A DNA stretch of 64,000 nucleotides. It comes from Ferruginibacter sp. GTDB taxonomy: Bacteria; Bacteroidota; Bacteroidia; Chitinophagales; Chitinophagaceae. Of the stretch, positions 11,951 to 29,383 are shown in pieces. How positions within the stretch are numbered: the first letter of the stretch is position 1; every line of letters begins with the position of its first letter. The notes under the pieces were generated by a model, which made no database searches, had not been told where the DNA came from, and saw only the letters and a program-made list of their open reading frames with translations. The stretch is taken from assembly GCA_016786725.1 (NCBI GenBank), contig JAEUVU010000003.1, forward strand, positions 62,001 to 126,000. Direction: 5' to 3'. Position numbers and translations under genes: made by a program.

Positions 11951-14900
11951 ATGTATAAAATTTTTATACTTGCTGTTGCAGTTTCTATAATGCCTGTTTC
12001 CTATAATCTTACCACTGCTGATCTTTCAGCATCAGAAAATTCAGACCAATCTCATTATATTTTTCATTTTACAAATACAAGTGCCGAAAGCCCTTTTGAT
12101 CCAGAAAAAAAAGCTTCTCAACCGTGGAGCCAAAACTGGATGGCAGCAGCACAGGAAAACATCCGCAAAAGCGAATATCATTTTAAATGGGAAGAAAAAT
12201 TAAAAGCATATTGCACACCCAACCGCAAAAACAACCTCCGGTTTTTTTATGATGAAGATGGTTTTGTTGTAGAGCCACGGCAGACTAAGATACCGGTTGA
12301 CAAGGTTGACAGGTTGATAAAGGCAGAGGACATCAGGTACAAGACCATCCCTTACTGGAAAGTAAAATTTAGCCTCGATAAAAAGCAGGTGGGTAATGGT
12401 AAATGGCAAATCTTAAACAACAAAGCCGAATACATCACAGAAAAAATAACCGTACAATACATCAACAACGACGATGGCATGCGGCAGAACTTTGTTGTCC
12501 ATTCTCCTCTTTCAAAAGATGATGAGCTGAAAATAAATTTCAGTGTCAATACAAAACTTAAAACTTATTTATGCAGTAACCAATTGCAGTTTTTTAAAAA
12601 CAAAACCAACGTTTTAAATTATAGGGATTTAAATGTTTGGGATGCAAACAACAAGCCACTAACCGCCTCTTTTCAAAAAAATAAAAACGGTAAGTTTTTT
12701 ATTAAGGTAGATGCTAAAAATGCAGCTTATCCCATTACCATTGATCCTCTCAGCACAACCCCTTCGGCAATACTTGTAAACAATCAGTCTAATTCAAATA
12801 TGGGCGGGTCGGTAGCTGCTGCTGGTGATGTAAACGGCGATGGTTACAGTGATGTAATTGTGGGAGCCCCCACTTTTGATAATCCGGAAGCTAATGAGGG
12901 TGTTGTTTTTATCTACCATGGCTCCATAAATGGAATTACTGCAACCCCGGCCGCAACGTTAGAGATTAATCAAATTAATGCACAATTTGGATTTAGTGTT
13001 TCAACGGCCGGCGATGTAAATGGCGATGGTTACAGCGATATAATTGTTGGCTCTCCCTTATATGACAATACTGAAAATAGTGAGGGTGCGGCATTTGTTT
13101 ATCATGGTTCTGCAACTGGTATTGTTACCACTCCTGCGGCAGTAATTGAAAGCAACCAGGCAGGCGCCCAATTGGGCTTTTCGGTTGCCTGTGCAGGCGA
13201 TGTAAATAATGATGGTTTTAGCGATATAATTGCTGGTGCCTGGCTTTACGATGATGGGGAAGCAAATGAAGGTGTGGCTTTTGTTCATCATGGTAGTGCT
13301 GCAGGAATAAGTACAACGCCGGCCATTGTGCTGCAGGCAAATCAATCAGCCGCTAATTATGGTATTGCGGTTGCCTGTGCCGGTGATGTAAATGGCGATG
13401 GATTTAGTGATGTAATTGTAGGGGCAGAAGATTATGATAATGGCAATACCGATGAAGGAGTGGTTTTTGTGTATCATGGCAGCGCCGCTGGATTAAATAA
13501 TACAGCCGCAGTAATGTTAGAAGGCAATCAGGACCTTTCGCAATTTGGCTTTGCAGTTTCATCTGCAGGTGATGTAAATGGCGATGGATACAGTGATGTT
13601 ATTGTTGGCGCTTACCTTTTTGATAACGGAGAAACCAATGAAGGCAATGCTTTTGTTTATCATGGTTCTGCTGCCGGCATTGTTAATACTATCGCTACTA
13701 CATTGCAAAGCAACCAGTCTTCTTCCGGCTTTGGCATATCTGTAAAATGTGCAGGAGATATTAATGGAGATGGGTTTAGCGATATAATTGCAGGGGCAGA
13801 CACCTATCAGAATGGACAAAGTGCAGAAGGCGCTGCATTTGTTTATTTTGGCACCGGTTCGGGCATTAATATTACCCCTACAGTTTTAGAAAGCAACCAG
13901 GCAAATGCCAGAATGGGAAGGGGTATTGGAAGTGCCGGCGATGTAAATGGTGATGGATATAGTGATGTAATTATTGGTGCTTATTTTTACACGAATACAC
14001 AAAGCTTTGAAGGGGCTGCTTTTGTGTATCATGGCTCAGCTGGCGGCATAAATACTACTACCACAGCCCTGGTACAAAGCGATCAGGCAAGCGCTTACCT
14101 GGGTATGTCAGTAGCATCTGCCGGAGATGTAAACAGCGATGGTTACAGCGATATTATTGTTGGCGCTTACCAGTATGATAACGGGCAATCCAACGAAGGA
14201 GCCGCATTTGTGTATCATGGTTCGGCTACTGGTATTACCACCACGGCAGCCGCTATGGTTCAAAGCGACCAGGCAAGCGCCTACCTGGGCATTTCAGTGG
14301 CATCTGCCGGAGATGTAAATAGCGACGGATATGGCGATGTTATTGCCGGTGCTTATGGTTATTCAAACGGGCAACTGGCCGAAGGCGCTGCATTTATTTA
14401 TCATGGTTCTGCGGCAGGCATCGGTACTACTCCCTCGGCAATAACAGAAAGCAACCAGGTAGCTGGCAGAATGGGTTATTCAGTTGCATGCGCTGGCGAT
14501 GTAAACGGCGATGGTTACAGCGATGTTATTACAGGGGCCTATCAGTATGATAATGGCCAGGCAGATGAAGGTGCTGCATTTATTTACCACGGTTCTGCTG
14601 TTGGAATAAATACCACGGCGAGCGTTGTGCTTGAATGTAATCAGGCTGGCGCCAGTTTCGGCGTTTCTGTAAGCGGGGCCGGCGATGTTAATAGCGATGG
14701 TTACAGTGATGTAATTGCGGGGGCATATAATTATACAAACGGACAGGCATTTGAAGGCGCTGCATTTGTTTATCATGGATCTGCCACCGGTGTTAACAGC
14801 ACTGCGGCCACAGTGCCGGAAAGCAACCAGGTAAATGCCAGCCTGGGTGTTTCTGTTGCAGCGGCCGGTGATGTTAATGGCGATGGTTATGGCGATGTAA

Positions 14901-16291
14901 TTGCTGGTGCTAATTTTTATTCTAACGGGCAGGGTAATGAAGGCGTTGCGTTTATTTATCATGGTTCTGCATCGGGCATCAATATTACGCCTGCCACTAT
15001 CATTGAAGGCAACTTTATAGGGGCTTACCTTGGAAGTTCTGTTGCGGGGGCTGGCGATGTAAACGGAGATGGTTACAATGATGTGGTTATTGGGGGCTTT
15101 GGATATGATAACGGACAAACAGACGAAGGACATGTTTTTGTACACCATGGCTCAGCTACAGGCATCAGCGCTACAGCTGCAGCCACATTAGAAAGTAACC
15201 AGTCACAGGCATTTCTCGGTCAGTCGGTAAGTTTCGCCGGTGATGTAAATGGCGATGGTTACAGCGATATAATTGCAGGTGCCTATGGTTATGATAACGG
15301 GCAAACAGATGAGGGGGTAGCATTGGTTCACCACGGCAACAATCCTGGCAATGGAAATCGCAACAGGCTCCGTCTTTATAATGCCGACCTTATAACCCCC
15401 ATCAATAGCAGCAATTTCATCTTCAGCAATTTTGGTGCAGGCCTGTATGCCAGATCTTTTCTGGGCAGAGATAAGGGTAAGCTGGTTTGGGAAACAAGGT
15501 TAAACTACAACGCTTACAGCGGCACACCAATCACCAACAGCACTTTATTTACTGCCCAACAGCCTGCTTACACTGATATGGGTTTAACAGGTGTTGAGTT
15601 AAAAGATGTTATTTCTAAAATTTCCGGTGGCAGGTACACCAAACTAAGGGCCCGGATAAAATACGATCCAGTTACCGCTATCACGGGGCAGGTTTACAGC
15701 CCCTGGCGCAATGTTTCATCTATCATTGATGCAAATAATCTGGGTGTGCTGCCGATTGAATTTATTTCCTTCAATGCTTCATGGATTCAAAAAGGAAAAA
15801 CCGCCCGGCTCGATTTTAAAACAGATAAAGAAAGTGGCATCTGTTGTTTTGAAATTGAAAAAAGCAGCGATGGCTTTAATTTTTATTCCATCGGAACTTT
15901 GCCTGCAAAAAATGTAAGTGGTATACAATCATATTCTTTTATTGATGGCAACGCAACTGGCAAAAAACAATTTTACCGCATAAAAATAAAAGGCATTACC
16001 GGTCAGGTTGATTACAGCAATATGCAGTATTTACAAAATGATAAAGCAACTGAAATACTTGTATTCCCCAACCCGACAACCGATAAGCTGCAATTCCAGT
16101 TTAATAAATGGTACCATAAGATGAATGTACAGGTTATAAACAGTGCCGGGCAAATGATAAAACAGTTCACCCGCCTTCCCGTATCCGGACAAACACTTTC
16201 AATTCCGGTTCATGACCTGCCCGCTGGCCAGTACTGGCTTACATTACAAAGTGGTGATGAAAAACAGTTGTTACAGTTCGTAAAGCAATAA
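11951..16291 (+). CDS. giant FG-GAP repeat surface protein, T9SS type A (paralogue 1)
   Basis: About 1446 residues. The start is set at the second of two adjacent ATGs (11948 and 11951) because both paralogues begin MYK[IV]FTL. Order of parts: a short signal peptide; a conserved N-terminal module (about 45-265) starting PWSQNWMAAAQENIRKSEY and ending YPITIDPLS; 14 FG-GAP repeats (about 268-1132) each with a calcium-binding loop of the D-x-N-x-D-G-[YF]-x-D type; a conserved C-terminal block (about 1137-1300); and a T9SS type A sorting domain (VFPNPTTDKLQ to the terminal QLLQFVKQ). Fourteen repeats would build two seven-bladed beta-propellers. It is likely exposed on the cell surface or released. 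This copy uses a repeat variant with ESNQ and EGAAFVYHGSA wording, distinct from paralogues 2 and 3. Confidence 0.93.
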   Translation: MYKIFILAVAVSIMPVSYNLTTADLSASENSDQSHYIFHFTNTSAESPFDPEKKASQPWSQNWMAAAQENIRKSEYHFKWEEKLKAYCTPNRKNNLRFFYDEDGFVVEPRQTKIPVDKVDRLIKAEDIRYKTIPYWKVKFSLDKKQVGNGKWQILNNKAEYITEKITVQYINNDDGMRQNFVVHSPLSKDDELKINFSVNTKLKTYLCSNQLQFFKNKTNVLNYRDLNVWDANNKPLTASFQKNKNGKFFIKVDAKNAAYPITIDPLSTTPSAILVNNQSNSNMGGSVAAAGDVNGDGYSDVIVGAPTFDNPEANEGVVFIYHGSINGITATPAATLEINQINAQFGFSVSTAGDVNGDGYSDIIVGSPLYDNTENSEGAAFVYHGSATGIVTTPAAVIESNQAGAQLGFSVACAGDVNNDGFSDIIAGAWLYDDGEANEGVAFVHHGSAAGISTTPAIVLQANQSAANYGIAVACAGDVNGDGFSDVIVGAEDYDNGNTDEGVVFVYHGSAAGLNNTAAVMLEGNQDLSQFGFAVSSAGDVNGDGYSDVIVGAYLFDNGETNEGNAFVYHGSAAGIVNTIATTLQSNQSSSGFGISVKCAGDINGDGFSDIIAGADTYQNGQSAEGAAFVYFGTGSGINITPTVLESNQANARMGRGIGSAGDVNGDGYSDVIIGAYFYTNTQSFEGAAFVYHGSAGGINTTTTALVQSDQASAYLGMSVASAGDVNSDGYSDIIVGAYQYDNGQSNEGAAFVYHGSATGITTTAAAMVQSDQASAYLGISVASAGDVNSDGYGDVIAGAYGYSNGQLAEGAAFIYHGSAAGIGTTPSAITESNQVAGRMGYSVACAGDVNGDGYSDVITGAYQYDNGQADEGAAFIYHGSAVGINTTASVVLECNQAGASFGVSVSGAGDVNSDGYSDVIAGAYNYTNGQAFEGAAFVYHGSATGVNSTAATVPESNQVNASLGVSVAAAGDVNGDGYGDVIAGANFYSNGQGNEGVAFIYHGSASGINITPATIIEGNFIGAYLGSSVAGAGDVNGDGYNDVVIGGFGYDNGQTDEGHVFVHHGSATGISATAAATLESNQSQAFLGQSVSFAGDVNGDGYSDIIAGAYGYDNGQTDEGVALVHHGNNPGNGNRNRLRLYNADLITPINSSNFIFSNFGAGLYARSFLGRDKGKLVWETRLNYNAYSGTPITNSTLFTAQQPAYTDMGLTGVELKDVISKISGGRYTKLRARIKYDPVTAITGQVYSPWRNVSSIIDANNLGVLPIEFISFNASWIQKGKTARLDFKTDKESGICCFEIEKSSDGFNFYSIGTLPAKNVSGIQSYSFIDGNATGKKQFYRIKIKGITGQVDYSNMQYLQNDKATEILVFPNPTTDKLQFQFNKWYHKMNVQVINSAGQMIKQFTRLPVSGQTLSIPVHDLPAGQYWLTLQSGDEKQLLQFVKQ
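12765..15345 (+). repeat. 14 tandem FG-GAP repeats, about 186-bp period (paralogue 1)
   Basis: Fourteen in-frame copies of a unit of about 62 codons can be counted by the loop AGD[VI]N[GSN]DG[YF]. Most copies keep the sequence gatgtaaatggcgatgg nearly unchanged at DNA level, so the array is a direct-repeat tract able to recombine within itself and with the arrays in the two paralogues. Boundaries are approximate. Confidence 0.9.
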
Positions 16292-16488
16292 CATATCAAA
16301 CAGTTTTGAAAAGCCTCCGGGAAAAAAGCCTTGATTGGTTTTTTGCCCAACCAGCAAAAGGGCATTTTGTCCAGTTCCCTCATTTTAACTCCCAATTACA
16401 CGGCCGGCTGAAATTTGTGTTTCCTGTTTCTTTATCTTTATATGTTTAACGCTTACTTTCTAAAATCAGAGCGCTTTATCTATAAAAT

Positions 16489-19400
16489 ATGTACAAAATT
16501 TTTACCCTCTCTGCGGCCATTGCCATAATGCCGCTTTCGCAAAATATTCTTTCATCAAATATCAAAGAGGATAGCAGTTTTAACATTCCGGTCTTTCTTT
16601 CTAATATTAAAAATACGGTTACGCCTAATCCATTCGAACCAGAAAAAAAAGCAACAGAACCATGGAGCCAGAACTGGATGGCGACAGCACAGGAAAACAT
16701 CCGCAAAAGCGAATACCATTTTACCTGGGAAGAAAAGTTAAAAGCCTATTGCACCCCCAACCGGAAAAACAATCTTCGTTTTTTTTACAACGAGAAAGGG
16801 TTTTCTGTTGAGCCGCGGCAGGTAAAAATACCGGTTGATAAAGTTGATAAGATGGCAGGGCCAGAGGATATCAAATACAGAACCATTCCTAATTGGAAGG
16901 TTAGATTTGAATTAGATAAAGGCCTTTTGAGCCAAATGCCTTCAGCCAATGGCAAACAACAAATGGTAAATGAAAATAAATGGCAAATCGTAAACAACAA
17001 AGCCGAATACATCACAGAAAAAATAACCGTACAGTACATTAACAACTACGAAGGCATGCGCCAGAACTTTATTGTGCATACTCCTTTATCAAAAAATAAC
17101 GAGCTCAAAATAAACTTCAGCATAAAAACAAAACTGAAAAGCAAACTCACCGGTAACTGTTTACAATTCTTCCATAAAAAAACAAATGTTTTAAACTACC
17201 GCGACCTGAAAGTGTGGGATGCAAACAATAAACTGTTGAAAGCTTCTTTCCATAAAAAAAATAAAGGGCGTTTTTATATACAGGTTAATACAAAAGATGC
17301 TGTTTATCCCATAACCATAGATCCTATAAGTACCGGTACAACCGGTACTCCCGACTGGATTGGAGATGATGCCGACCAGGCCGGGGCAATTTTTGGCAGC
17401 AGTGTGGCCAGCGCAGGTGATGTAAATGGCGATGGGTACAGCGATGTAATTATTGGAGCTCCCCGTTTTGATGAAGGTGCAAACCTGGATGAGGGCAGGG
17501 CTTTTGTGTATCACGGCAGTGCGGCGGGCTTATCCGCCACACCAAGCAGCACACCCGACGATGCTGACCAGGCTAATGCATTTTTTGGAACCAGTGTGGC
17601 CACTGCAGGCGATGTAAACGGGGACGGTTACAGCGATGTGATCATTGGCGCTTACTTATACGATGATGGCGCTTTTTCAAACGAAGGCAGGGCTTTTGTA
17701 TATCATGGATCAGCAACCGGGTTGGTAACAACGCCCAGCAGTATGCCGGATGATTGCAACCAGGTCGGTGCCAGGTTTGGCGCCAGTGTTGCCTCTGCCG
17801 GTGATGTGAATGGCGATGGATATAGTGATGTAATTATTGGTGCCAACTTATTTGATGATGGCGCAAATACCGATGAAGGAAGGGCTTTTGTTTATTATGG
17901 AAGTGCAACAGGCATAAGTGCAAGCCCCAACAGCATACCCGATGATGCCAACCAGATATTTGCCGAGTTTGGTAATTGCGTAGCCAGCGCCGGAGATGTG
18001 AATGGCGATGGCTACAGTGATGTGGTGATAGGCGCTTTTATGTGGGATGAGGTGCCAACCTTTACCAATGACGGAAAGTGTTTTGTTTATCATGGCAGCG
18101 CAGCAGGCCTGGCAGCATCGCCAAACAATACCCTTGATGCTACCAATGAGAACAATGCAAACCTGGGCATCAGTGTTGCCTGTGCCGGAGATGTAAATGG
18201 CGATGGTTACAGCGATATTATTGCCGGTGCCCCCGGTCTTGATGATGGGGCAAATTTTGATGAAGGCAAAGCCTTTGTTTATTTTGGAAGCGCTGCCGGT
18301 GCATCAGCTAGCCCCGGTATAACTTTAGACGATGCTAACCAGCTGGGTGCCTCATTTGGTTCATGTGTAGCATCTGCGGGTGATGTAAACGGTGATGGTT
18401 TCAGCGATGTGATGGTGGGTGCAGAATTATATGACGATACACATACCAATGAAGGGGTTTGTTTTATTTATTATGGAAATGCAGCAGGAACAATGGTGAG
18501 CCCGGTTTGTACACTTGATGATGCCGATCAGAACGATGCAGCCGTTGGTTCAAGCGTAGCATCTGCCGGAGATGTAAATGGCGATGGGTACAGCGATGTA
18601 ATTATTGGTGCCTATTTTTTTACCGATGGCGGAAATGCCCAGGAAGGCCGGGCGTTTGTATATCATGGTTCGGCGGCGGGTTTATCAGCCTCGCCAACCA
18701 ATACCCCCAATGATGCTGACCAGGTAAATGCCAGTTTTGGTATTAGCGTAGCATCAGCGGGAGATATAAATGCAGATGGGTATAGCGATGTGATTATTGG
18801 AGCCAGTCAATTTACCGATGGGGCAAATTCAAACGAAGGAAGAGCCTTTTTATATCACGGCTCGGCTACAGGTTTACCCGGCACCCCAAATAGTATTTTA
18901 GATAATGCAAACCAGGCAAATGCCCAGTTTGGAATTAGTGTTTCAAGCGCCGGAGATGTAAATGGAGATGGGTATGGCGATGTAGTTATTGGGGCTTTAC
19001 TATATACTGACGGTGTAAACGGAGCGGAAGGCCGGGCCTTTGTGTACCATGGATCAGCGGCAGGATTATCTACAACACCCAATAGTACACCAGACGATGC
19101 TGACCAGATGAATGCTAATTTTGGGGTTAGTGTAGCTTGCGCCGGAGATGTAAATGGCGATGGGTATAGCGATATAATTATTGGAGCTGCTAACTTTGAT
19201 GATGGCGTATTTACTGATGAAGGAAGAGCGTACATATATTATGGGGCTTCAACAGGATTGTCTTCAACCCCGGACAATATTGCTGATGATGCAGACCAGG
19301 CAAGCGCATACTTTGGTTATAGCGTGGCTTCAGCAGGCGATGTAAATGGCGATGGGTACAGCGATGTGATTATTGGTGCTTATGCGTATAACGACGGGTT

Positions 19401-20958
19401 TATTGATGAAGGAAAAGTATTTATTTATCACGGTTCGGCTACAGGAATTTCAGCAACCCCCAACAGCACACCAGATGATATTGATCAGGCAAATGCTGAT
19501 TTTGGCATAAGTGTATCAAGCGCAGGCGATGTAAATGGCGATGGATATAGCGATGTTATTATTGGTGCTTATCTGTTTGATGATGGAATAAACAATGAAG
19601 AGGGCAGGGCTTTGGTCTATCATGGTTCGGTCACGGGTTTATCTTCATCTCCAAACAGTATTTTGGATGATGCGAACCAATCTGTAGCGCTATTTGGCAG
19701 ATCGGTATCTTCAGCAGGTGATGTAAATGGCGACGGATATGGTGATGTTATTATTGGAGCCGATGGCTTTGATGATGGGTTCGGGGATGAAGGCAAGGCC
19801 TTCGTATATTATGGTTCAGTTACAGGGCTTTCTAATTCCCCGGGCAATACACCCGATGACGCAAATCAAGCCAGCGCCTGGTTTGGCAGAAGCGTTGCCT
19901 GTGCAGGAGACGTAAATGGAGATGGTTACAGCGATATAATTATTGGCGCCCCTGTTTATAATGACGGAGGAAATACGGATGAAGGGAATGCCTATTTATA
20001 TAATGGCAACGAGTTTACAACCAACAAACGCAACAACCTCCGCCTTTACAATACCGATCTTATCACACCTATCAACAGCAGCAATTTTTTATTCGGCAAT
20101 TTTGGTACCGGCTTGTATGCCAAATCTTTTTTAGGCAGAGACAAGGGTAAACTGGTGTGGGAAACAAGGTTGAATTACAATACCTACAGCGGTACTCCAA
20201 TCACCAACAGCACTTTCTATACAGCACAACAGGCAACATTTACTGATATGGGGTTAACGGGTGTTGAGTTAAAAAATATCATCAATAAAATATGGGGTGG
20301 TAAATACACCAAGATCAGGGCAAGGGTAAAATACAATCTGGTAACCGCTGTCACCGGTCAGGTATATGGCCCCTGGCGGTATGTTTCAAACATCATTGAT
20401 GCAAATCATTTGGGTGTTTTACCCATAGAATTGATTTCTTTTAATGCGGGCTGGCTACAAAAAGGCAAAACAGCAAAACTTGATTTTAAAACCGATAAAG
20501 AATATGGCCTGTGCTGTTTTGATATAGAAAAAAGCACTGATGGTTTTAATTTTTATTCCATCGGAACATTGCCTGCAAAAAACACAAGCGGTATTCAGTC
20601 TTATTCATTTATTGATGCCAATGCAACGGGTAAGAAACAATTCTATCGTTTGAAGATAAAGGGTATTGCGGGCCAGGTTGATTACAGCAATATGCAGTAT
20701 TTGCAAAATGATAAAGCTACAGAAATTATAGTTTTTCCAAACCCAGCAACCGATGTGCTGCAGCTGCAATTGAATAAATCCTATGATAAAATGAATGTAC
20801 AGATTATAAGCAGCGAAGGCCGGGTTGTAAAAAAATTAACTGTTCCTGCATTTAATCAAATTATAACTGTACCGGTTCAAAATTTACCTGCAGGTAAATA
20901 CTGGCTGCATTTGCAAAGCGGAGTGGAAAAACAGGTGCTGCAATTTGTGAAGCAGTAG
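16489..20958 (+). CDS. giant FG-GAP repeat surface protein, T9SS type A (paralogue 2)
   Basis: 1489 residues with the same plan as paralogue 1: signal peptide, N-terminal module from PWSQNWMATAQENIRKSEY to YPITIDPIS (with a 13-residue or so insertion before NENKWQIVNNKAEY), 14 FG-GAP repeats (about 284-1178), a conserved block starting KRNNLRLYNTDLITP, and a T9SS type A tail (VFPNPATDVLQ to VLQFVKQ). Its repeats use the wording PDDADQANA, DDGANTDEGRAFVYHGSA. The calcium loops DVNGDGYSD are intact in nearly every copy; one reads DINADG. Its stop lies 3 bp from the stop of the converging LuxR regulator. It probably acts as an adhesin or extracellular scaffold; this is inference from fold and export signal. 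Confidence 0.93.
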   Translation: MYKIFTLSAAIAIMPLSQNILSSNIKEDSSFNIPVFLSNIKNTVTPNPFEPEKKATEPWSQNWMATAQENIRKSEYHFTWEEKLKAYCTPNRKNNLRFFYNEKGFSVEPRQVKIPVDKVDKMAGPEDIKYRTIPNWKVRFELDKGLLSQMPSANGKQQMVNENKWQIVNNKAEYITEKITVQYINNYEGMRQNFIVHTPLSKNNELKINFSIKTKLKSKLTGNCLQFFHKKTNVLNYRDLKVWDANNKLLKASFHKKNKGRFYIQVNTKDAVYPITIDPISTGTTGTPDWIGDDADQAGAIFGSSVASAGDVNGDGYSDVIIGAPRFDEGANLDEGRAFVYHGSAAGLSATPSSTPDDADQANAFFGTSVATAGDVNGDGYSDVIIGAYLYDDGAFSNEGRAFVYHGSATGLVTTPSSMPDDCNQVGARFGASVASAGDVNGDGYSDVIIGANLFDDGANTDEGRAFVYYGSATGISASPNSIPDDANQIFAEFGNCVASAGDVNGDGYSDVVIGAFMWDEVPTFTNDGKCFVYHGSAAGLAASPNNTLDATNENNANLGISVACAGDVNGDGYSDIIAGAPGLDDGANFDEGKAFVYFGSAAGASASPGITLDDANQLGASFGSCVASAGDVNGDGFSDVMVGAELYDDTHTNEGVCFIYYGNAAGTMVSPVCTLDDADQNDAAVGSSVASAGDVNGDGYSDVIIGAYFFTDGGNAQEGRAFVYHGSAAGLSASPTNTPNDADQVNASFGISVASAGDINADGYSDVIIGASQFTDGANSNEGRAFLYHGSATGLPGTPNSILDNANQANAQFGISVSSAGDVNGDGYGDVVIGALLYTDGVNGAEGRAFVYHGSAAGLSTTPNSTPDDADQMNANFGVSVACAGDVNGDGYSDIIIGAANFDDGVFTDEGRAYIYYGASTGLSSTPDNIADDADQASAYFGYSVASAGDVNGDGYSDVIIGAYAYNDGFIDEGKVFIYHGSATGISATPNSTPDDIDQANADFGISVSSAGDVNGDGYSDVIIGAYLFDDGINNEEGRALVYHGSVTGLSSSPNSILDDANQSVALFGRSVSSAGDVNGDGYGDVIIGADGFDDGFGDEGKAFVYYGSVTGLSNSPGNTPDDANQASAWFGRSVACAGDVNGDGYSDIIIGAPVYNDGGNTDEGNAYLYNGNEFTTNKRNNLRLYNTDLITPINSSNFLFGNFGTGLYAKSFLGRDKGKLVWETRLNYNTYSGTPITNSTFYTAQQATFTDMGLTGVELKNIINKIWGGKYTKIRARVKYNLVTAVTGQVYGPWRYVSNIIDANHLGVLPIELISFNAGWLQKGKTAKLDFKTDKEYGLCCFDIEKSTDGFNFYSIGTLPAKNTSGIQSYSFIDANATGKKQFYRLKIKGIAGQVDYSNMQYLQNDKATEIIVFPNPATDVLQLQLNKSYDKMNVQIISSEGRVVKKLTVPAFNQIITVPVQNLPAGKYWLHLQSGVEKQVLQFVKQ
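17350..20010 (+). repeat. 14 tandem FG-GAP repeats, about 190-bp period (paralogue 2)
   Basis: Fourteen copies counted by the AGD[VI]N[GA]DG[YF] loop, each unit 63-64 codons. Copies are highly alike at DNA level, especially around the calcium loop. Boundaries approximate. Confidence 0.9.
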
Positions 20959-20961
20959 GTT

Positions 20962-21639
20962 TTACAATAATCCTTTCTGATAAGCCAGGTGCAATGCCTG
21001 TGCCCGGCTGTTTACGTGCAGTTTGTCGTAAATATTGATCACGTGCTTTTTTGCTGTGTTGGGGCTGATATCGAGCTTGCTGCCAATTTCTTTATAAGAC
21101 ATGCCCTGCATCAGCAACTGCAGTATTTCTTTTTCCCTGTCGGTGAGGTCGAACAATGCTTTGGTATCAGGCTCTGCTTTTTTTTGAAGCAGCGTTAGCT
21201 GGTTGTTTTGCACCAGTTGCAGAATTTTGTGTGCTATCCCCGGCGAAATAGGCCCGGCGCCACTTTCATGCATCTGCCAAAGCACCTCATTGATGTTTTC
21301 TGCACTCTCGTCTTTTAATAAATAACCAAAAGCGCCCGCTTTAATTGCTTTAAATATTTTATCCTCATCATCAAAAATAGAAAGCACCACAAATTTTACA
21401 GAAGGATAAAATGAAGATCCGGCAGCAATAGCGTCCACTCCATCCATATTCGGCATTTCCAGGTCCATCAGCGTTACATCCGGCAGGTTTTCTACAGGCA
21501 GGGCTTTCATCTTTTCTAAAAAATCCTTCCCGTCTTCTGCCATCAATGTAATTTCAAAATGGCCGTGGCGCAGCAACTTATCTTTAATAATGTTGCGGTT
21601 GCTGGCCTTATCATCTACTATGGCAATTTTTATCGGCAT
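20962..21639 (-). CDS. response regulator with LuxR-type HTH, partner of the propeller kinase
   Basis: 225 residues from the ATG at 21639 (MPIKIAIVDD); the frame extends to a TTG at 21690, but the added residues do not belong to a receiver. The receiver has DD at 9-10, phospho-acceptor Asp59 (LMDLEMPNMDG), VLSIFDD and Lys in YLLKDE. The C-terminal LuxR HTH (about 165-225) reads LTDREKEILQLLMQGMSYKEIG through SPNTAKKHVINIYDKL. This is the NarL/DesR-type architecture that pairs with HisKA_3 kinases. It starts 66 bp after the kinase stop on the same strand, so the pair is one operon. It converges on FG-GAP paralogue 2 with a 3-bp gap. Confidence 0.93.
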   Translation of the reverse strand: MPIKIAIVDDKASNRNIIKDKLLRHGHFEITLMAEDGKDFLEKMKALPVENLPDVTLMDLEMPNMDGVDAIAAGSSFYPSVKFVVLSIFDDEDKIFKAIKAGAFGYLLKDESAENINEVLWQMHESGAGPISPGIAHKILQLVQNNQLTLLQKKAEPDTKALFDLTDREKEILQLLMQGMSYKEIGSKLDISPNTAKKHVINIYDKLHVNSRAQALHLAYQKGLL

Positions 21640-21705
21640 CTTTTTATTCGTCAAATATTCATAAATAATTTTACCGGTGTAATAATCCAACAGGGTACCC
21701 TGTTT

Positions 21706-24702
21706 TTAAATAAGTACGGTAATTCTTGTTCCGTTACCCGGTATTGATGAAACGGTAAATTCAATTTCGGATTCGGCAGCCCGTTTGCTCATGTTCATCA
21801 ATCCGTTGCCAAGTTCGGTATCTTTTATTGCTTCGTAATCAAATCCCTTTCCGTCATCAGTAACGGCCAGCTTCCATTTATCATCGCTGGCGTTGCCCGA
21901 TAAAGTGATGTTTTTTGCTGCCGCATGTTTTATAGCGTTGGTTACGGCCTCCTGCACAATCCTTACCACATGCAATGCTTTGGTATGATGCAATACTTTT
22001 TCCGTGGGTGCATCCACTTCTGTTTTAAACTGTATGTGCGGATAATAGCGTGACAGCGCCTGCATAAAATTTTTTATCCGCAGCAAACATTCTTCCGCTG
22101 TGTAGTTATCTTTTTTTAAAGCCCATACCGTTTCTCTTAAAGAAGTAATAATGTCTTTGGATGCAAACTTCAGGTCGTTCATTAAAGCATTTTTTTCTTC
22201 ACTGTTGCTTTCTTTTTGCAGTAGTTCGGTATTGTATAAAACAGCATTGGCATACGCTCCCACACTATCGTGCAAATCACGGCTGATGCGTTCTCTTTCC
22301 ATTTGTATCCTGTGTTCATTCTCCAGCACTGCCAGTTTTTTCTGGTATTTATTTTTATTGTACCGGTTGAATGAATAAGCCAATGCAGCAATTGCCAGCA
22401 AAATCATGGCTGTAATAAACCACCAGGTTTTCCAAAAGGGCGGATTGATGATGATGCGTATCTCTTTCATCGGTTTTGCATCCTTATCAAAGAACCGGGA
22501 GGCGTAAATTTTTAAAGTATAATTACCCGGCGGTAATAGATACCTTACTGTTTGCAACCCTTCGTTTTGTATCCACTGCTCATCAATGCCTTCCATTTTA
22601 TATTGGTAGATGTATTGGCCGGGGTTTTTGCCAGACATGGCAACGAAATCAAAAGACAGGGAGTTTTTATCATAGGGCAGATCTATCTTGCTGATATTCC
22701 AAACTGCTGTATCGGTAAAGGCATCCTGGTTGTTCACTCTTATCCTTGTTACAAGCAGGTTTATTTTTTCTTCAAAGCTGTTAATGGCTGATGGATAAAA
22801 GCTGCTGATGCCGTTAACGCCACCAAAGAAAATTTCGCCGTTATCGGCCCGGGCAACCACGTTGGTATTAAATTCGTTCTCCTGCAGTCCGTCTTCTTTG
22901 GTTAATTGAAAAATACTGTTGTCTGTTTTTATTTTAAAGATGCCTTTATTGCTGCTGCACCAAAGCGAACCACTCTCATCAAAAGCCATAGCATAAATAC
23001 ATTCGTCGGGAAGCCCGTCTGCCTTTGTGAGCTGCTTCAATATTTTGCCTGTCGCATCTGTCTTAAAAATACCTTTATTGCACCCCATATAAATGTTGCC
23101 TGCATTGTCTTTTAAAAAACACCTTACATAGCCGGTGTTTTTAAAGGGTATTCTTTTTATTTCCTTAAATGTTGCTGCATCAATATAAAAAAGCTCGTTG
23201 TTGGCATGGCTGATGATGGTGCCGTTATAGTATAATCCACTATGTGTATACGATTTGGTGAATTCATACTCTGTACAGGTTCCTGCAGTAAAATCTGTCT
23301 TATACAATCTCCCCTGTGCCTGGGTAATGGCCATTTTTTCATCCTGGTAAAGCGTACTTCCAAAATAGTCAATATTCATCTTTTGGCCTGCCTGTGATCT
23401 GCCGGGAAACTCTTTAAAATGCAGCAGGTCGGCAGATAAAGACCAGATCTTATTATCGCTGTTACAAAAAAGCAGGTAGCTATTTTTATTGTCTTTTATG
23501 ATGCAGTTAAAATACCTTGGCGAAGTATCGCCGGGAAGGGCTTTGATATGTTTTACCAGGCGCTGCAGCGTATCAAACACGAGCAGGCCGTTGCCCGACG
23601 TGCCGGCCAGTATCCTGTTATTTTTTTTATCGGGCAGAATACTGAGTATATTGTTGTTGTCGTCTTTTTTTAAAGTTCCATAATACCTGATCGGGTAATT
23701 ATTTTTTATTATTTTTCTTACACCTGATGTAATGGTAGTAACAAAAAGGTTTCCGAAATTATCCCCGGCAAGCCTGGCAATGGTAGCCCTTCCTCCAATG
23801 GGTTCATTCTGGTAATTAACCAGCTCGGCGCCCAAAGCAAAGTTTACCGGATCAAACTCGTACAGGCGTTCGTTAAAGCTGATAAGTGTTTTGTTTTGCC
23901 AGGGAAAAATGATACTGCGGCCAATATTCCGGTCATCTTTGCCCTTAATGATTTTTGTGCTGCTGGTATTGGCAGTAAAGTTGTAAAGCTGAAGGGAGTT
24001 ATGAATATCATAGCTGTAATACAGTACTTCATTTGCCGATACCATTCTTAAAAAATAGGAAGCAAGGGATTTAATGGGCGGGGATTGTGCAATTAATTGT
24101 TTCTTTTTAAGGTCCCAGCAATAAAGCACATCCTTAATGCCGATGGTGGTTTTATGATCTGCAATATTGCTGCTGAAAGAAGGGCGAAAATCGCTATTGG
24201 ATGAATAATCGGGCAAGCCGGTTTTTGTATTGCTGTTTACAGCAAATCCATTTAGTTTAATGCCTGTAACATAGCCTTCTACTGTATAGAAATAAATAAC
24301 CTGTTCATCTTCGCCAATGAACTGTGCAGCCTTTTTTGAACCGGCATAACTATATACCTGTTCAAACCTGTTCCCGTTAATATCGTATTTGCTGATGCCC
24401 TGCGAATGGCTGATGAGCAGGTCGCCATTACTGCAGCGGAAAAAGGTTACAAATTTATCATCTGGCAGGCCGGGTTGTATGGGTACTATGGTAAACTCCC
24501 TGCCATCAAATTTTTGAATACCGTTGGGGAAACTTATCCAGCAAAAATTGTTTTTATCGTAAGCTATATCTGTTATTGTGGTTTGCAGCAGGCCTTCGTT
24601 AACGCTGTAGCTGAAGGTATTGAACCGTTCTGTCTGCTGGGCCTGTACAAAAAGGCCCGCCTGTAAAAACACAATGCATAATATGGCTTTTAAAAAACTC
24701 AA
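21706..24702 (-). CDS. two-component regulator-propeller (Reg_prop/Y_Y_Y) HisKA_3 sensor kinase
   Basis: 998 residues. A signal peptide (SFLKAILCIVFLQAGLFVQAQ) leads a long periplasmic region with propeller blades of the Reg_prop type (ITDIAYDKNNFCWISFPNGIQKFDG; YAMAFDESGSLWCSSNKGIFK), then a Y_Y_Y Ig-like domain ending LLPPGNYTLKIYASRFFD (about 726), one transmembrane helix (about 760-778), a HisKA_3 box with His near residue 811 (RISRDLHDSVGA), and an ATPase domain with N box QEAVTNAIKHA and G box DDGKGFDYEA. It lacks a fused DNA-binding domain and works through the LuxR regulator downstream. The start is TTG at 24702: a stop codon lies 11 codons upstream and no ATG is available in between. 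It is divergent from FG-GAP paralogue 3. Confidence 0.92.
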   Translation of the reverse strand: MSFLKAILCIVFLQAGLFVQAQQTERFNTFSYSVNEGLLQTTITDIAYDKNNFCWISFPNGIQKFDGREFTIVPIQPGLPDDKFVTFFRCSNGDLLISHSQGISKYDINGNRFEQVYSYAGSKKAAQFIGEDEQVIYFYTVEGYVTGIKLNGFAVNSNTKTGLPDYSSNSDFRPSFSSNIADHKTTIGIKDVLYCWDLKKKQLIAQSPPIKSLASYFLRMVSANEVLYYSYDIHNSLQLYNFTANTSSTKIIKGKDDRNIGRSIIFPWQNKTLISFNERLYEFDPVNFALGAELVNYQNEPIGGRATIARLAGDNFGNLFVTTITSGVRKIIKNNYPIRYYGTLKKDDNNNILSILPDKKNNRILAGTSGNGLLVFDTLQRLVKHIKALPGDTSPRYFNCIIKDNKNSYLLFCNSDNKIWSLSADLLHFKEFPGRSQAGQKMNIDYFGSTLYQDEKMAITQAQGRLYKTDFTAGTCTEYEFTKSYTHSGLYYNGTIISHANNELFYIDAATFKEIKRIPFKNTGYVRCFLKDNAGNIYMGCNKGIFKTDATGKILKQLTKADGLPDECIYAMAFDESGSLWCSSNKGIFKIKTDNSIFQLTKEDGLQENEFNTNVVARADNGEIFFGGVNGISSFYPSAINSFEEKINLLVTRIRVNNQDAFTDTAVWNISKIDLPYDKNSLSFDFVAMSGKNPGQYIYQYKMEGIDEQWIQNEGLQTVRYLLPPGNYTLKIYASRFFDKDAKPMKEIRIIINPPFWKTWWFITAMILLAIAALAYSFNRYNKNKYQKKLAVLENEHRIQMERERISRDLHDSVGAYANAVLYNTELLQKESNSEEKNALMNDLKFASKDIITSLRETVWALKKDNYTAEECLLRIKNFMQALSRYYPHIQFKTEVDAPTEKVLHHTKALHVVRIVQEAVTNAIKHAAAKNITLSGNASDDKWKLAVTDDGKGFDYEAIKDTELGNGLMNMSKRAAESEIEFTVSSIPGNGTRITVLI

Positions 24703-24757
24703 TAGCGGCTTACCGTTGCGGTTTATTTCAAATTACGTAATCCTTATCAAACAATAT

Positions 24758-24777
24758 AATAATCCAAATGGATTATT
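24758..24777. promoter_or_regulatory. perfect 20-bp inverted repeat, candidate operator
   Basis: AATAATCCA-AA-TGGATTATT is a perfect 9-bp inverted repeat with a 2-base centre. It lies in the 156-bp divergent region between the propeller kinase (start 24702) and FG-GAP paralogue 3 (start 24859), where a dimeric regulator could control both. Binding by the adjacent LuxR-type regulator is a guess. Confidence 0.45.
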
Positions 24778-24858
24778 GCCCGTAACTATGAAATAGAATT
24801 AATTTATTTATAAAATCCCATCCTCGCAAAGCTGTTTCTTTCATTTAAGCATGACAGG

Positions 24859-27800
24859 ATGTATAAAGTTTTTACACTTGCAGTGGCGGTTTCTGTTTTG
24901 CCACTATCCAAACAATATTATTCGCCGGCCATTAATAATGAGGCCGAAAGCCAGCCTTATATCTTTCAGTTTAAAAATAACATTACCACAAATCCTTTTG
25001 AGCCGGAAAAAAAAGCAACAGCTGAACCCTGGAGCCAAAACTGGATGGCAAGCGCACAGGAAAACATCCGCAAGAGCGAGTATAATTTTAAATGGGAAGA
25101 GAAATTAAATACTTATTGCACACCCAACCGTAAAAACAACCTGCGCTTTTTTTACAGTGAGAAAGGTTTTGTTGTTGAGCCTCGTACAACTAAAATCCCT
25201 CTTGGTAAAATTGATAAAACAATATTGCCCGGAGACATTAAATACAAAACCATTCCTAACTGGAAAATAAATTTCAACCTTGATAAAAACCAGGTTGGTG
25301 ATGGTAAATGGCAAATCGTAAACAACAAAGCCGAATACATCACAGAAAAAATAACCGTGCAATACACCAACAACGATGAAGGCATGCGGCAGAATTTTAT
25401 TGTGCATTCACCTTTATCAACCGATGATGAGTTAAAAATTAACTTCAGCATAAAAACAAAACTCAAAACTTATTTACACGGAAACCAGTTGCAGTTCTTT
25501 CATAAAATAACAAATGTGCTTAATTATGAGCAGTTAAAGGTTTGGGATGCGGAGGGAAAACCTTTGGAAGCAGGAATCAAAAAAAACAGGAAGAACAAAT
25601 TTTACATACAGGTTAATACAAAAAATGCAGTTTATCCAGTTACGATTGATCCATTAAGTGTAACACCTAACAGTACCTTGGATGACGCAAACCAGTCGTT
25701 TGCTTCTTTCGGAAATTCAGTAGCTTCAGCCGGGGATGTAAATGGCGATGGATACAGTGATGTAATTATTGGCACTCCAAACTATGATGATGGTGCCAAT
25801 ACAAACGAAGGCCGTGCATTTGTCTATCATGGGTCATCAACGGGCTTGTCTGCCAGTCCTAATAATACGCCTGATGATGCAAATCAGGCCAGTGCTCAAT
25901 TTGGAGTTTGTGTGGCTTCTGCAGGTGATGTAAACGGTGATGGATACAGCGACGTAATCATTGGAGCTAGCGGATACAGTGATGGCGCAAACAGTTTTGA
26001 GGGCCGTGCATACGTTTATCATGGCTCTGCTTCAGGTCTTACTGCAAGCCCTGCAAGCATGCCCGATGATGCCAACCAGGCTAATGCTTCATTTGGTATC
26101 AGTGTTGCTTGTGCAGGTGATGTAAACGGCGATGGATACAGCGATGTGGTCATTGGTGCTCCATTCTATGATGATGGTGCCAATGCAAACGAGGGCCGGG
26201 TATTTATCTATCATGGGTCGGGCACCGGAATAGCGGCATCTCCAACCGGTTTCCGGAGTGATGCCAACCAGGCAGGAGCCACATATGGCTTTTCTGTTGC
26301 TTCTGCAGGAGATGTTAATGGTGATGGATATTACGATTTAATTGTTGGGGCCTATAATTATAATGACGGCTTGGGTTCAGAAGGCAGGGCCTTTATATAT
26401 CATGGTTCAGCATCTGGCATATCCGCCGCACCAAGCAGTACAAGAAGTGATGGAAATCAATTTAACTGCTGGTTCGGATATTCGGTAGCCTGTGCCGGAG
26501 ATATAAACGGCGATGGATACAGCGATGTGATTATTGGCGCTAACCAGTACGATGATGGTGCAAATGCAACTGAAGGGCGGGCTTTTGTATATCATGGCTC
26601 AGCATCTGGCATTTCGGCAACACCCAATAGCACCCCTGATGATGCAGATCAGTCAAATGCTTTTTTGGGATTTTCGGTTGCCTGTGCAGGGGATGTTAAC
26701 GGGGATGGGTACAGCGATGTAATAATTGGAGCCTGGGGTTATGCAGAAAACGGTAATTCAGATGAAGGCAAGGCTTTTGTTTATCATGGTTCTTCTACAG
26801 GGTTATCGCCAAACCCAAATACACTAATTGATGATGGCAACCAAGCAGATGCCAGGTCGGGGAGGTCGGTTGCTTCTGCCGGTGATGTTAATGGTGATGG
26901 GTATAGCGATGTAATTGTTGGCGCACCAAACTATGATGATGGCGCCAATGTAGATGAAGGCCGGGCCTGGGTTCACCACGGCTCTGCTACAGGTTTATCA
27001 TCCACACCCAACAACATACAGGATGATGCAAACCAGGCTAACGCCAATTTTGGATATTCTGTTTCCACTGCCGGCGATGTAAATAGTGATGGATACAGCG
27101 ATGTGATTATTGGCGCATGGAGCTATGATGATGGGGCAAATACTGATGAGGGCAGGGCTTTTGTATATCATGGTTCCGCATCGGGTTTATCGGCTTCGCC
27201 CAGCAATACGCAGGATGATGCAAACCAGGCAGGGGCACAGTTTGGCTTTTCGGTAGCTGACGCCGGGGATGTGAATGGTGATGGATATGGCGATGTGATC
27301 ATTGGCGCTAATGGATATGATGATGGGGCCAACCTTAATGAAGGCCGGGCTTTTGTATATCATGGTTCCGCATCAGGTTTATCGGCCACGCCCAATAATA
27401 CTCCCGATGATGCAAACCAGGCGGGCTCCAATTTTGGTTATTCGGTAGCCGGCGCCGGTGATGTGAATGGTGACGGGTACAGCGATGTAATTATTGGCGC
27501 CAGGCAATATGACGACGGGGCCAATACAGAAGAGGGCCGGGCTTTTGTATATCATGGTTCGGCAACGGGCCTATCCGCTACTCCTAATAGTACACCTGAT
27601 GACTGCAACCAGGCCAATGCCAATTTTGGTATTTCGGTAGCCGGCGCCGGTGATGTAAATGGCGATGGTTATTGCGATGTGATCATCGGCGCATACCAGT
27701 TTGATGACGGCGCTAATGCCAATGAAGGAAGGGCTTATGTTTATCATGGTTCTGCTTCCGGTATATCGGCATCGCCCAATAGTACCCCCGATGATGCCAA

Positions 27801-29280
27801 CCAGGCGGGGGCTTGCTTTGGTGTGGCTGTTTCATCGGCCGGGGATGTGAACGGAGACGGGTATGCTGATATTATCATTGGTGTGTACCTGTATGATGAC
27901 GGTGCTAATACAGATGAAGGGCGGGCCTATATTTATCATGGCTCTGCAACGGGCGTATCGGCAACACCGAATAATACACAGGATGACAGCAACCAGGCTT
28001 TCGCCAATTTTGGCCTCTCTGTTTCCACTGCAGGTGATGTAAACGGCGATGGGTACAGCGATGTGATAATCGGGGCTCCTCAATACGATGACGGTGCAAA
28101 CACCAATGAAGGCAGGGCCTATATTTATTACGGTTCATCAACCGGTTTGGCAGCCAGCCCAAGCAGCATTATTGATGACGCAAACCAGGCTAATACATTG
28201 CTTGCAAATAATGCTTCCACCGCCGGTGATGTAAACGGAGACGGTTATAGTGACATTATTGTTGGTGCCAACGGGTATGATGATGGCGCCAACACAGATG
28301 AAGGCCGTGCTTTTGTTTACAACGGAAATGAGTTTACTAACAACAAGCGCAATAACCTGAGGCTGTATAACACCAACCTCACCACACCTATTAGCAACAG
28401 CAATTTTATACTGGGCAATTTTGGTATCGGGCTTTTTGCAAAGTCTTTCCTGGGCCGCAACAGCGGTAAGCTTGTTTGGCAAACCAGGCTTAGCCAGAAT
28501 GCTTATAGCGGCAACCCCATTACAAACAGCGTACTCTTTTCGGGGCAGGAGGCAAGCTATAGCAACCTGGGTCTTTCTGGTACGGAACTTAAAGAAGTGA
28601 TCAGCAAACTTAATGGCGCAGGCAAATATACCAAGGTCAGGGCAAGGGTTAAATACAATCCTGTGCTGGCCATCACCGGCCAGGTTTATGGCCCATGGCG
28701 TTATGTATCTTCCATTATTGATGGAAATAATTTAGGTGCTTTGCCTATTGAGCTGATCTCTTTTAAAGCAGCCTGGAAAGAAAAAGGAAAGTCTGCAAAA
28801 ATTGAATTTGCAACCGATAAAGAAAGCGGCATCTGTTGTTTTGATATTGAAAAGAGTACCGACGGTTTTAATTATTATGCTATCGCCACTTTACCGGCAA
28901 AAAATTCTGCAAATGTTGAACAATATGATTTTGTAGATAACAATGCAAAGAACAAAAATCAATTCTATCGCCTTAAAATAAAAGGAGAAACCGGCAAGGT
29001 TGAGTACAGTAGCATTCAACAATTAGAGAATGATAAGGCAACAGAGATAATCGTTTTCCCCAACCCAACAACTAATGTTTTGCAATTGCAATTGAATAAC
29101 TCATTTACTAAGGTGAATATACGGATCATAAACAGCGCCGGGCAGGTTGTAAAGCAATTAACTATTCCTTCATTTTACCAAACAATTACCATACCTGTAC
29201 AAAATTTAGCTAACGGTACATACTGGCTGCATTTACAAAGCGCCGATGAAAAACAGGTGTTGCAGTTTGTGAAGCAGTAG
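24859..29280 (+). CDS. giant FG-GAP repeat surface protein, T9SS type A (paralogue 3)
   Basis: 1473 residues with the same order of parts as the other two: signal peptide (MYKVFTLAVAVSVLPLS), N-terminal module (PWSQNWMASAQENIRKSEY to YPVTIDPLS), 14 FG-GAP repeats (about 268-1158) in the DDANQ / YDDGANTDEGRAFVYHGSA style, conserved block (NNKRNNLRLYNTNL), and T9SS type A tail (VFPNPTTNVLQ to VLQFVKQ). The repeats of this copy are the most uniform of the three. Calcium loops are DVNGDGY[SYCAG]D in almost all copies. It is read away from the propeller kinase and is followed by another T9SS cargo gene. A surface adhesin or ligand-binding scaffold is the likely role; no catalytic domain is visible. 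Confidence 0.93.
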   Translation: MYKVFTLAVAVSVLPLSKQYYSPAINNEAESQPYIFQFKNNITTNPFEPEKKATAEPWSQNWMASAQENIRKSEYNFKWEEKLNTYCTPNRKNNLRFFYSEKGFVVEPRTTKIPLGKIDKTILPGDIKYKTIPNWKINFNLDKNQVGDGKWQIVNNKAEYITEKITVQYTNNDEGMRQNFIVHSPLSTDDELKINFSIKTKLKTYLHGNQLQFFHKITNVLNYEQLKVWDAEGKPLEAGIKKNRKNKFYIQVNTKNAVYPVTIDPLSVTPNSTLDDANQSFASFGNSVASAGDVNGDGYSDVIIGTPNYDDGANTNEGRAFVYHGSSTGLSASPNNTPDDANQASAQFGVCVASAGDVNGDGYSDVIIGASGYSDGANSFEGRAYVYHGSASGLTASPASMPDDANQANASFGISVACAGDVNGDGYSDVVIGAPFYDDGANANEGRVFIYHGSGTGIAASPTGFRSDANQAGATYGFSVASAGDVNGDGYYDLIVGAYNYNDGLGSEGRAFIYHGSASGISAAPSSTRSDGNQFNCWFGYSVACAGDINGDGYSDVIIGANQYDDGANATEGRAFVYHGSASGISATPNSTPDDADQSNAFLGFSVACAGDVNGDGYSDVIIGAWGYAENGNSDEGKAFVYHGSSTGLSPNPNTLIDDGNQADARSGRSVASAGDVNGDGYSDVIVGAPNYDDGANVDEGRAWVHHGSATGLSSTPNNIQDDANQANANFGYSVSTAGDVNSDGYSDVIIGAWSYDDGANTDEGRAFVYHGSASGLSASPSNTQDDANQAGAQFGFSVADAGDVNGDGYGDVIIGANGYDDGANLNEGRAFVYHGSASGLSATPNNTPDDANQAGSNFGYSVAGAGDVNGDGYSDVIIGARQYDDGANTEEGRAFVYHGSATGLSATPNSTPDDCNQANANFGISVAGAGDVNGDGYCDVIIGAYQFDDGANANEGRAYVYHGSASGISASPNSTPDDANQAGACFGVAVSSAGDVNGDGYADIIIGVYLYDDGANTDEGRAYIYHGSATGVSATPNNTQDDSNQAFANFGLSVSTAGDVNGDGYSDVIIGAPQYDDGANTNEGRAYIYYGSSTGLAASPSSIIDDANQANTLLANNASTAGDVNGDGYSDIIVGANGYDDGANTDEGRAFVYNGNEFTNNKRNNLRLYNTNLTTPISNSNFILGNFGIGLFAKSFLGRNSGKLVWQTRLSQNAYSGNPITNSVLFSGQEASYSNLGLSGTELKEVISKLNGAGKYTKVRARVKYNPVLAITGQVYGPWRYVSSIIDGNNLGALPIELISFKAAWKEKGKSAKIEFATDKESGICCFDIEKSTDGFNYYAIATLPAKNSANVEQYDFVDNNAKNKNQFYRLKIKGETGKVEYSSIQQLENDKATEIIVFPNPTTNVLQLQLNNSFTKVNIRIINSAGQVVKQLTIPSFYQTITIPVQNLANGTYWLHLQSADEKQVLQFVKQ
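25665..28330 (+). repeat. 14 tandem FG-GAP repeats, about 192-bp period (paralogue 3)
   Basis: Fourteen copies of a 64-codon unit counted by the AGD[VI]N[GS]DGY loop. Neighbouring units share long stretches of identical DNA (for example gatgatgcaaaccaggc and ttttgtatatcatggttc), so the array should be prone to copy-number change. Boundaries approximate. Confidence 0.9.
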
Positions 29281-29383
29281 CAGGGCGATTTAGAATTCTA
29301 CAAAAAATATTTACCTTTAAATCTTAGCTGTTGACTTTTGTTGCTGACAGGTTGCCTGTTTGTTTATAAATAAAACAAAAAAT

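Follow-up and report, generated by a model that had tools for sequence, protein, structure and literature searches.

Why does each of three large, related proteins encoded at a single locus carry exactly the same number of repeats, when the repeats themselves have diverged from one protein to another? This question is raised by a 64,000-nucleotide stretch of the genome of a Ferruginibacter sp. (contig JAEUVU010000003.1, positions 62,001 to 126,000; hereinafter, the window, from whose first nucleotide all positions in P1-P3 and their neighbours are counted). The window contains three paralogous genes, here named P1, P2 and P3, each of which encodes 14 FG-GAP repeats, i.e., the blades of beta-propellers. 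Very probably, P1-P3 are surface proteins for which export by the type IX secretion system (T9SS) is likely, with two predicted integrin-type, seven-bladed calcium propellers each, and among their relatives inheritance, duplication and replacement appear to act on the propeller as a whole. Accounts of propellers usually let them grow by single blades, with numbers that drift; here, by contrast, the closed ring of seven blades looks like the evolutionary unit. The family is, in consequence, well suited for testing how repeat proteins come to maintain a constant number of copies.

Repeat number and divergence of the blades

The calcium-loop motif AGD[VI]NxDG[YF]xD occurs exactly 14 times in each of P1, P2 and P3, and a looser motif again returns 14 in each, which confirms the count given in a preliminary description of the locus. 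A loop of the DxDxDG type is present in 14 of the 14 blades of all three proteins alike, at a spacing of 61-62 (P1), 63-65 (P2) and 63-64 (P3) amino acids. The Pfam family FG-GAP (PF01839) matches P1, P2 and P3 with 304, 333 and 345 bits, respectively (cut-off 22.1), in 13, 14 and 14 separate stretches, and a chance origin of these matches is excluded because of their E-values (6.5e-93, 5.5e-102 and 9.7e-106). As read from the sequence, a strand order of 4-1-2-3, repeated 14 times, fits the outermost strands of the three repeat arrays with none left over, and the repeats cross the join between blades 7 and 8 (7|8) without a linker.

Within a protein, the blades share a mean identity of 58% (P1), 62% (P2) and 67% (P3), the most similar pair reaching 0.81. 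Between proteins, the mean is 51-52% for P1-P2 and P1-P3 and 64% for P2-P3, and at the DNA level the blades of P1 (type A, see below) and those of P2 and P3 (type B) are 56-57% identical. The flanks are more alike than the blades (71-76% identity among the N-terminal domains, 66-78% among the C-terminal regions), so the repeats have changed faster than the frame that holds them while their number has stayed the same; the divergence between copies that had been remarked upon earlier is thus real. The blades of P1-P3 resemble blades of their own protein or of their own type, and no position-by-position orthology of blades was found among P1, P2 and P3 (half-to-half excess ≤0.024). A recent duplication of one seven-blade propeller as the source of the 14 blades was considered and rejected, as none of the three proteins has an identity peak at an offset of 7 (0/3).

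Predicted structure

AlphaFold2 models were made for P1 and P3. In both models, (i) blades 1-7 and blades 8-14 each separately match solved integrin heads, at about 20-26% identity; (ii) each set is predicted to form a closed ring of seven four-stranded blades; and (iii) the dip in confidence within the repeats falls at 7|8. The lists of structure matches were full of integrins, and folds outside these lists may also match. The prediction that P1 and P3 each consist of two closed, integrin-type, seven-bladed propellers is well supported by these models. Structure prediction had been proposed as a check of two closed and stacked propellers per protein: the closed pair emerges from both models, with two seven-blade integrin-like matches in each, while "stacked" does not, given that predicted template modelling (pTM) scores of 0.49 and 0.52 make the relative placement of the two rings uncertain.

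Blade numbers in homologues

Homologues were gathered by means of the N-terminal domain and, hence, blade number could not steer their choice beyond the length window. Two N-domain searches (with 120 of 166 and 120 of 147 matches listed), a further search and a set of genome loci gave 167 proteins. From these, 12 partial proteins (less than 150 amino acids before the blades or less than 100 after them; 5, 7 in four cases, 8 in two, 10, 13 in two and 14 in two blades) and two duplicate translations (P0123, P0125) were removed, and the remaining 153, P1-P3 included, were counted. P0122 and P0124, translations of genome loci with 21 blades each, were retained, and P0135 was entered as 7, though its blades are weak and irregular. 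Among the matches listed, 129 full-length proteins have 14 blades, five have 7 and seven have 21. In other words, 141 of the 153 carry a multiple of seven, as anticipated when a count across homologues was first suggested, and 7, 14 and 21 are all present.

The genome loci, some of whose proteins are also among the 153, can be grouped as follows: (i) 7 blades in Niastella soli (L038) and Dyadobacter MSC1_007 (L037); (ii) 21 blades in Dyadobacter soli (L039), Desulfocapsa (L043, L044) and Ignavibacteria (L046, L048); and (iii) others, namely 14-blade loci, one with 12 (L049) and two of Paraflavitalea (L050, L051) with 7 and 8 irregular blades. The N-domain was furthermore found in 25 of 294 family genomes. 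Of the 24 beyond the source genome, 23 (all but G048) were examined, and their 28 regions hold 29 frames with 14 detected blades (seven frames), 19 (one frame) or 5-8 irregularly spaced detectable ones (21 frames). The latter are taken, on their sequence, for degenerate single propellers. These 29 frames were kept apart from the 153; some may be the same genes.

Some further observations concern the spread and make-up of the family. Metagenome assemblies that carry the labels Desulfocapsaceae, Desulfocapsa, Chitinispirillaceae and WOR-3 (L042, L043, L045 and L047, respectively) contain the N-domain as well, L043 being one of the 21-blade loci. P0062 combines seven blades with a different C-terminal half and a match to PF13927, which we take to be an immunoglobulin family. 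Finally, a Ferruginibacter locus (L031, 2362-6804 and 6982-11421) holds two tandem copies whose DNA is identical over nearly the whole gene and differs only near the 3' end, which points to gene duplication in the very recent past or else to a repeat created in assembly.

The propeller as an apparent unit of evolution

Every blade of 109 fourteen-blade proteins was typed, and 103 of these proteins could be clearly assigned with two blade types, A and B. Five classes result: AA (39 proteins), BB (39), AB (15), BA (10) and unclear (6). The type switch lies exactly between blades 7 and 8 in 25 of the 25 hybrids, and a type-free test, in which the blade identity matrix is cut at its best point, also gives 7 in all 25. 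When the architectures of the 103 clearly typed proteins are placed on an N-domain tree (103 of 121), at least 31 changes are needed, or 19 with weak branches collapsed, compared with shuffled means of 49.6 and 37.5; architecture is, in consequence, neither fixed by descent nor random.

Blade-by-blade correspondence was detected in 252 of 5886 pairs of proteins, restricted to the first propeller in 181, to the second in 58 and extending to both in 13. No pair shows correspondence between a first- and a second-position propeller, and all of the 141264 cyclic-shift controls were negative. Certain closely related proteins have both flanks and one propeller in common, yet comparison of their other propeller reveals no relationship between corresponding blades. 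Thus, P0043 and P0067 share 87% identity in the N-domain, 95% in propeller 1, 57% in propeller 2 and 94% in the C-region, the corresponding values for P0021 and P0044 being 83, 94, 56 and 88%. In P0048 and P0057, propeller 1 is 97% identical and the N-domain only 76%. A single crossover is not favoured as the general cause of such one-propeller differences, inasmuch as the N- and C-regions of these pairs both lie above background (0.69/0.76 and 0.75/0.77, compared with 0.61/0.64 in 200 random pairs). One pair, P0015/P0029, does fit a single crossover, with 100% identity in the C-region, 94-100% in blades 9-14, 79% in blade 8 and 64-79% in blades 1-7.

Whole propellers also appear to be duplicated. 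In P0141 (14 blades), blades 2-6 are the same as blades 9-13, blades 1 and 8 are 95% identical, and blades 7 and 14, 93%; judging from these sequences, the protein looks like the product of a fresh whole-propeller duplication. Since its halves are 93-100% identical blade for blade, a one-step change from 7 to 14 blades by this route can occur. The N-domain of P0141 is 96% identical to that of the Niastella query, and its relative P0140 has seven blades. As for the window itself, the best positional partners are P0090 (0.22) and P0084 (0.17) for the first and second halves of P1, P0013 (0.12) and P0025 (0.17) for those of P3, and P0046 and P0021 (0.25) for the first half of P2.

Weighing the evidence

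A number of observations weigh against two closed rings per protein, inherited and exchanged as wholes. Regarding the models, in addition to the uncertain placement of the rings, (i) of the 50 alignment rows of each model, 22 (P3) and 19 (P1) have their ends in both propellers or in the C-region and, hence, do not delimit a single ring; (ii) the first propeller is matched alone in just one row per model; and (iii) integrin propellers were part of the AlphaFold2 training. Regarding blade numbers, 12 of the 153 proteins are not multiples of seven, with 13 (seven proteins), 8 (two), 10 (two) and 12 (one) blades, and the frame with 19 detected blades (L087) is another exception. Six of the seven 21-blade proteins (P0122, P0126-P0130) derive from one query and its matches, so independent 21-blade cases are few, and most homologues bear metagenome-type source labels. 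Regarding the 7|8 boundary, non-hybrids do not show it (best cut at 7 in 3 of 39 AA and 3 of 39 BB proteins), P1-P3 belonging precisely to this class of a single blade type; 21-blade proteins show no identity cut at 7 and 14; and three of the six untypable proteins among the 109 have confident switches elsewhere or spanning the join. Inserts of more than 3 amino acids occur at 7|8 in three proteins, but also at 3|4 in three and at 4|5, 5|6 and 6|7 in one each. Not all one-propeller pairs of the stricter classes have their breakpoint after blade 7 (112/177 and 42/57), and for blades 8-14 of P2 no positional partner exceeds 0.05.

Four alternatives have to be weighed against this background. It is possible, and we lean only modestly against it, that the 14 blades were merely inherited from one two-propeller ancestor through gene duplication, with no present selection on number. 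The N- and C-terminal regions of P1-P3 are indeed 66-78% identical and, with 129 of 153 family proteins having 14 blades, much of the agreement is common descent. Nevertheless, the blades of P1-P3 lack positional correspondence, so that replacement or renewed amplification of the propellers seems to have followed the separation of the genes, still with seven blades each; furthermore, 7 and 21 blades occur in other relatives. That ring closure holds the number is partly supported by the 7-14-21 series, which does not separate it from inheritance and whole-ring duplication. The selection on number suggested in the preliminary description is, then, supported in part, for inheritance and whole-propeller duplication would yield multiples of seven too, and there are the 12 exceptions.

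The second alternative, somewhat doubtful on balance, holds that, with no transfer between genes, a single blade is amplified in situ into a new propeller, one of the two at a time, and its copies then diverge. Propeller growth from single blades is documented (PMC9218822), blade 1 of P0092 (the same as blade 1 of P0094) is 80-89% identical to blades 2-6 of P0094 and 48-57% to its blades 7-13, blades 1 and 2 of P0140 are 97% identical, and no donor was identified for any replaced propeller. Against regrowth, the differing propeller in hybrids belongs to an existing blade type, A or B, and close single-propeller partners are found in otherwise less similar proteins, such as P0048 and P0057.

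It is very unlikely that errors in the metagenome assembly of repetitive genes account for the hybrids and the odd counts. Odd-count proteins do have somewhat more similar blades (median maximum 0.854 versus 0.793, p = 0.011), and P0092 and P0094 differ in number (10 versus 13 blades) despite nine of the ten P0092 blades having a 100% identical partner in P0094, a pair from which a contribution of assembly collapse or strain variation to odd counts is evident. Random chimeras, however, would not hit 7|8 in 25 of 25 cases and in both orders; both flanks still match in several of the swapped pairs; and blades with 51-52% protein and 56-57% DNA identity, such as those of P1 versus P2 and P3, are a poor target for misjoining. 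A single giant ring of 14 blades, for which the missing linker at 7|8 in P1-P3 and the sufficiency of one N-terminal velcro strand could be invoked, is hardly credible, because each half separately matches a complete integrin head in both models with a break in confidence at 7|8, seven-blade relatives exist, and the blade type switches at that very join in every hybrid.

Putative function and mechanism

Blade positions were numbered along a 64-position unit, and entropy was averaged over the 109 fourteen-blade proteins. Positions 27, 29, 31 and 35 of the calcium loop are nearly invariant within a protein (mean entropy ≤0.02 bits), and the most variable ones are 17, 20, 41 and 42 (2.56-2.75 bits), followed by 15 and 49 (2.24 and 2.18 bits). 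From what is known of integrins, we presume that the 4-1 and 2-3 loops, on the ligand-binding face opposite the calcium loops, hold the variable positions.

The following mechanism may be proposed. The proteins would be exported and held at the surface, where the invariant calcium loops would keep the rings as rigid discs, two per protein, and positions 17, 20, 41, 42, 15 and 49 would form a variable, putative ligand-binding face. Each ring is predicted to be closed by a "velcro" arrangement, its fourth strand being supplied from just before its first blade. The whole seven-blade propeller would be the unit inherited, duplicated and replaced in relatives; most likely, the count is held at 14 by two circumstances, namely that proper closure of a ring takes seven blades and that many changes affect a ring in its entirety. 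Swapping one propeller might then confer a new ligand while the frame, the export signal and the other propeller are retained.

The difference of one entire propeller between some close relatives suggests that the propellers are likely binding cassettes open to exchange. More tentatively, and with some doubt on our part, a cassette system can be imagined in which a fixed frame (N-domain, sorting tail and two sockets) receives complete propellers that are replaced position-true, first by first and second by second, to give a surface-binding repertoire of AA, AB, BA and BB proteins. If the propellers bind ligands, these bacteria would be diversifying their surface proteins by swapping integrin-like heads. 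Propellers of the VCBS type typically recognise carbohydrates (PMC9218822).

Comparison with known systems

In Rhodobacterales HTCC 2654, four entries of one genome have 14 FG-GAP repeats each, and such sets are read as tandem seven-bladed propellers (PMC3192720). Calling a matched set of this kind undescribed, as was done initially, is therefore too strong. That system resembles P1-P3 in having several paralogues, 14 repeats, a calcium motif per blade and a strand before blade 1 that closes the ring; the part of the account consulted here describes no T9SS tail, family N-domain or whole-propeller exchange. Human integrins keep only some of the calcium loops (PMC3192720), while here all 14 blades have one; P1-P3 also differ from the integrin alpha subunit in that their chains end in a T9SS sorting domain and share about 20-26% identity with it.

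The WRAP protein of Nostoc punctiforme likewise has 14 consecutive blades that form two seven-bladed propellers (PMC9218822). These are near-identical WD40 blades, as expected from recent amplification, whereas P1-P3 have FG-GAP blades that are not near-identical (mean 0.58-0.67, highest pair 0.81). According to the same source, (i) propellers are amplified from single blades, with WD40 blade numbers peaking at 7 and 14; and (ii) VCBS-type lineages have many blade numbers, e.g., 3, 4, 6 and 9 in one chitinase group (PMC9218822). The family of P1-P3 has ongoing propeller growth in common with them; in contrast to the VCBS-type lineages, its blade numbers are mostly 7, 14 or 21, and the differences concern entire rings. 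As regards T9SS cargo of type A, P1-P3 resemble it in having a sorting domain above the curated cut-off. The literature searched, which covered few subscription papers, returned nothing on FG-GAP together with T9SS, nothing on FG-GAP with Ferruginibacter or with double-propeller phrases, nothing on a "14-bladed" propeller, and, among the titles listed, nothing on the exchange of whole FG-GAP propellers. This exchange seems to be the new part of the present findings.

Export and genomic context

The sorting domain PF18962 matches P1, P2 and P3 with 37.8, 42.7 and 45.6 bits, respectively (cut-off 27), and TIGR04183 with 36.7, 36.8 and 42.0 bits (cut-off 23; 31.6 for P1 and 35.9 for P3 in a separate search). 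The genome holds 64 sorting-domain matches, 62 of which exceed the cut-off, as well as a T9SS translocon gene (a 2460-amino-acid frame with an SprA_N match of 474 bits, the search being confined to this component). By eye, the N-termini of P1-P3 resemble signal peptides. Because of the sorting domains and the SprA-type translocon gene, export of P1-P3 to the cell surface by the type IX system is likely. The parts of the three genes are given in Table 1.

Table 1. Positions in the window of P1, P2, P3 and their parts (aa, amino acids)
Feature	Position	Strand	Description
P1	11948..16291	+	1447 aa; 14 type-A blades (period 61-62 aa); T9SS sorting tail
P1 N-terminal domain	12089..12736	+	Match to alignment A1; domain kind used for collecting the family
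P1 propeller 1, blades 1-7	12743..14044	+	Residues 266-699 (model residues 12-445); predicted closed integrin-type
P1 propeller 2, blades 8-14	14045..15349	+	Residues 700-1134 (model residues 445-880); predicted
P1 T9SS C-terminal sorting domain	16061..16288	+	TIGR04183
P2	16489..20958	+	1489 aa; 14 type-B blades (period 63-65 aa); T9SS sorting tail
P2 N-terminal domain	16627..17313	+	Match to family N-domain
P2 blades 1-7	17341..18684	+	Residues 285-732; boundaries from repeat register alone
P2 blades 8-14	18685..20022	+	Residues 733-1178; boundaries from repeat register alone
P2 T9SS C-terminal sorting domain	20731..20955	+	PF18962 / TIGR04183
P3	24859..29280	+	1473 aa; 14 type-B blades (period 63-64 aa); T9SS sorting tail
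P3 N-terminal domain	24991..25641	+	Match to family N-domain; no Pfam match up to E 1
P3 propeller 1, blades 1-7	25660..26991	+	Residues 268-711 (model residues 244-687); predicted closed integrin-type
P3 propeller 2, blades 8-14	26992..28344	+	Residues 712-1162 (model residues 687-1138); predicted
P3 T9SS C-terminal sorting domain	29053..29277	+	TIGR04183

The family N-domain has three matches in its own genome, which are P1, P2 and P3. The N-domain of the first family member examined has no Pfam match, and three weak Pfam matches, each in one of nine members (E 0.05-0.08), were judged to be due to chance. On the blades, NCBIfam matches to the SaoC, XAC2610 and GWxTD models were set aside, as they look like cross-matches of the calcium loop. 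Elsewhere in the genome, two FG-GAP frames of 1125 and 1126 amino acids (C1:328418-330385 and C21:206776-208947), with four and three matches, respectively, have no match to the family N-domain.

Between P2 and P3, the opposite strand encodes a LuxR-type response regulator (20962-21690) and a sensor kinase with Reg_prop, Y_Y_Y and HisKA_3 domains (21706-24702). On the forward strand, 79 bases after P3, lies a gene (29360-30898) whose 512-amino-acid product combines CUB and T9SS sorting domains and is, from these domains, likely a fourth exported protein of the cluster.

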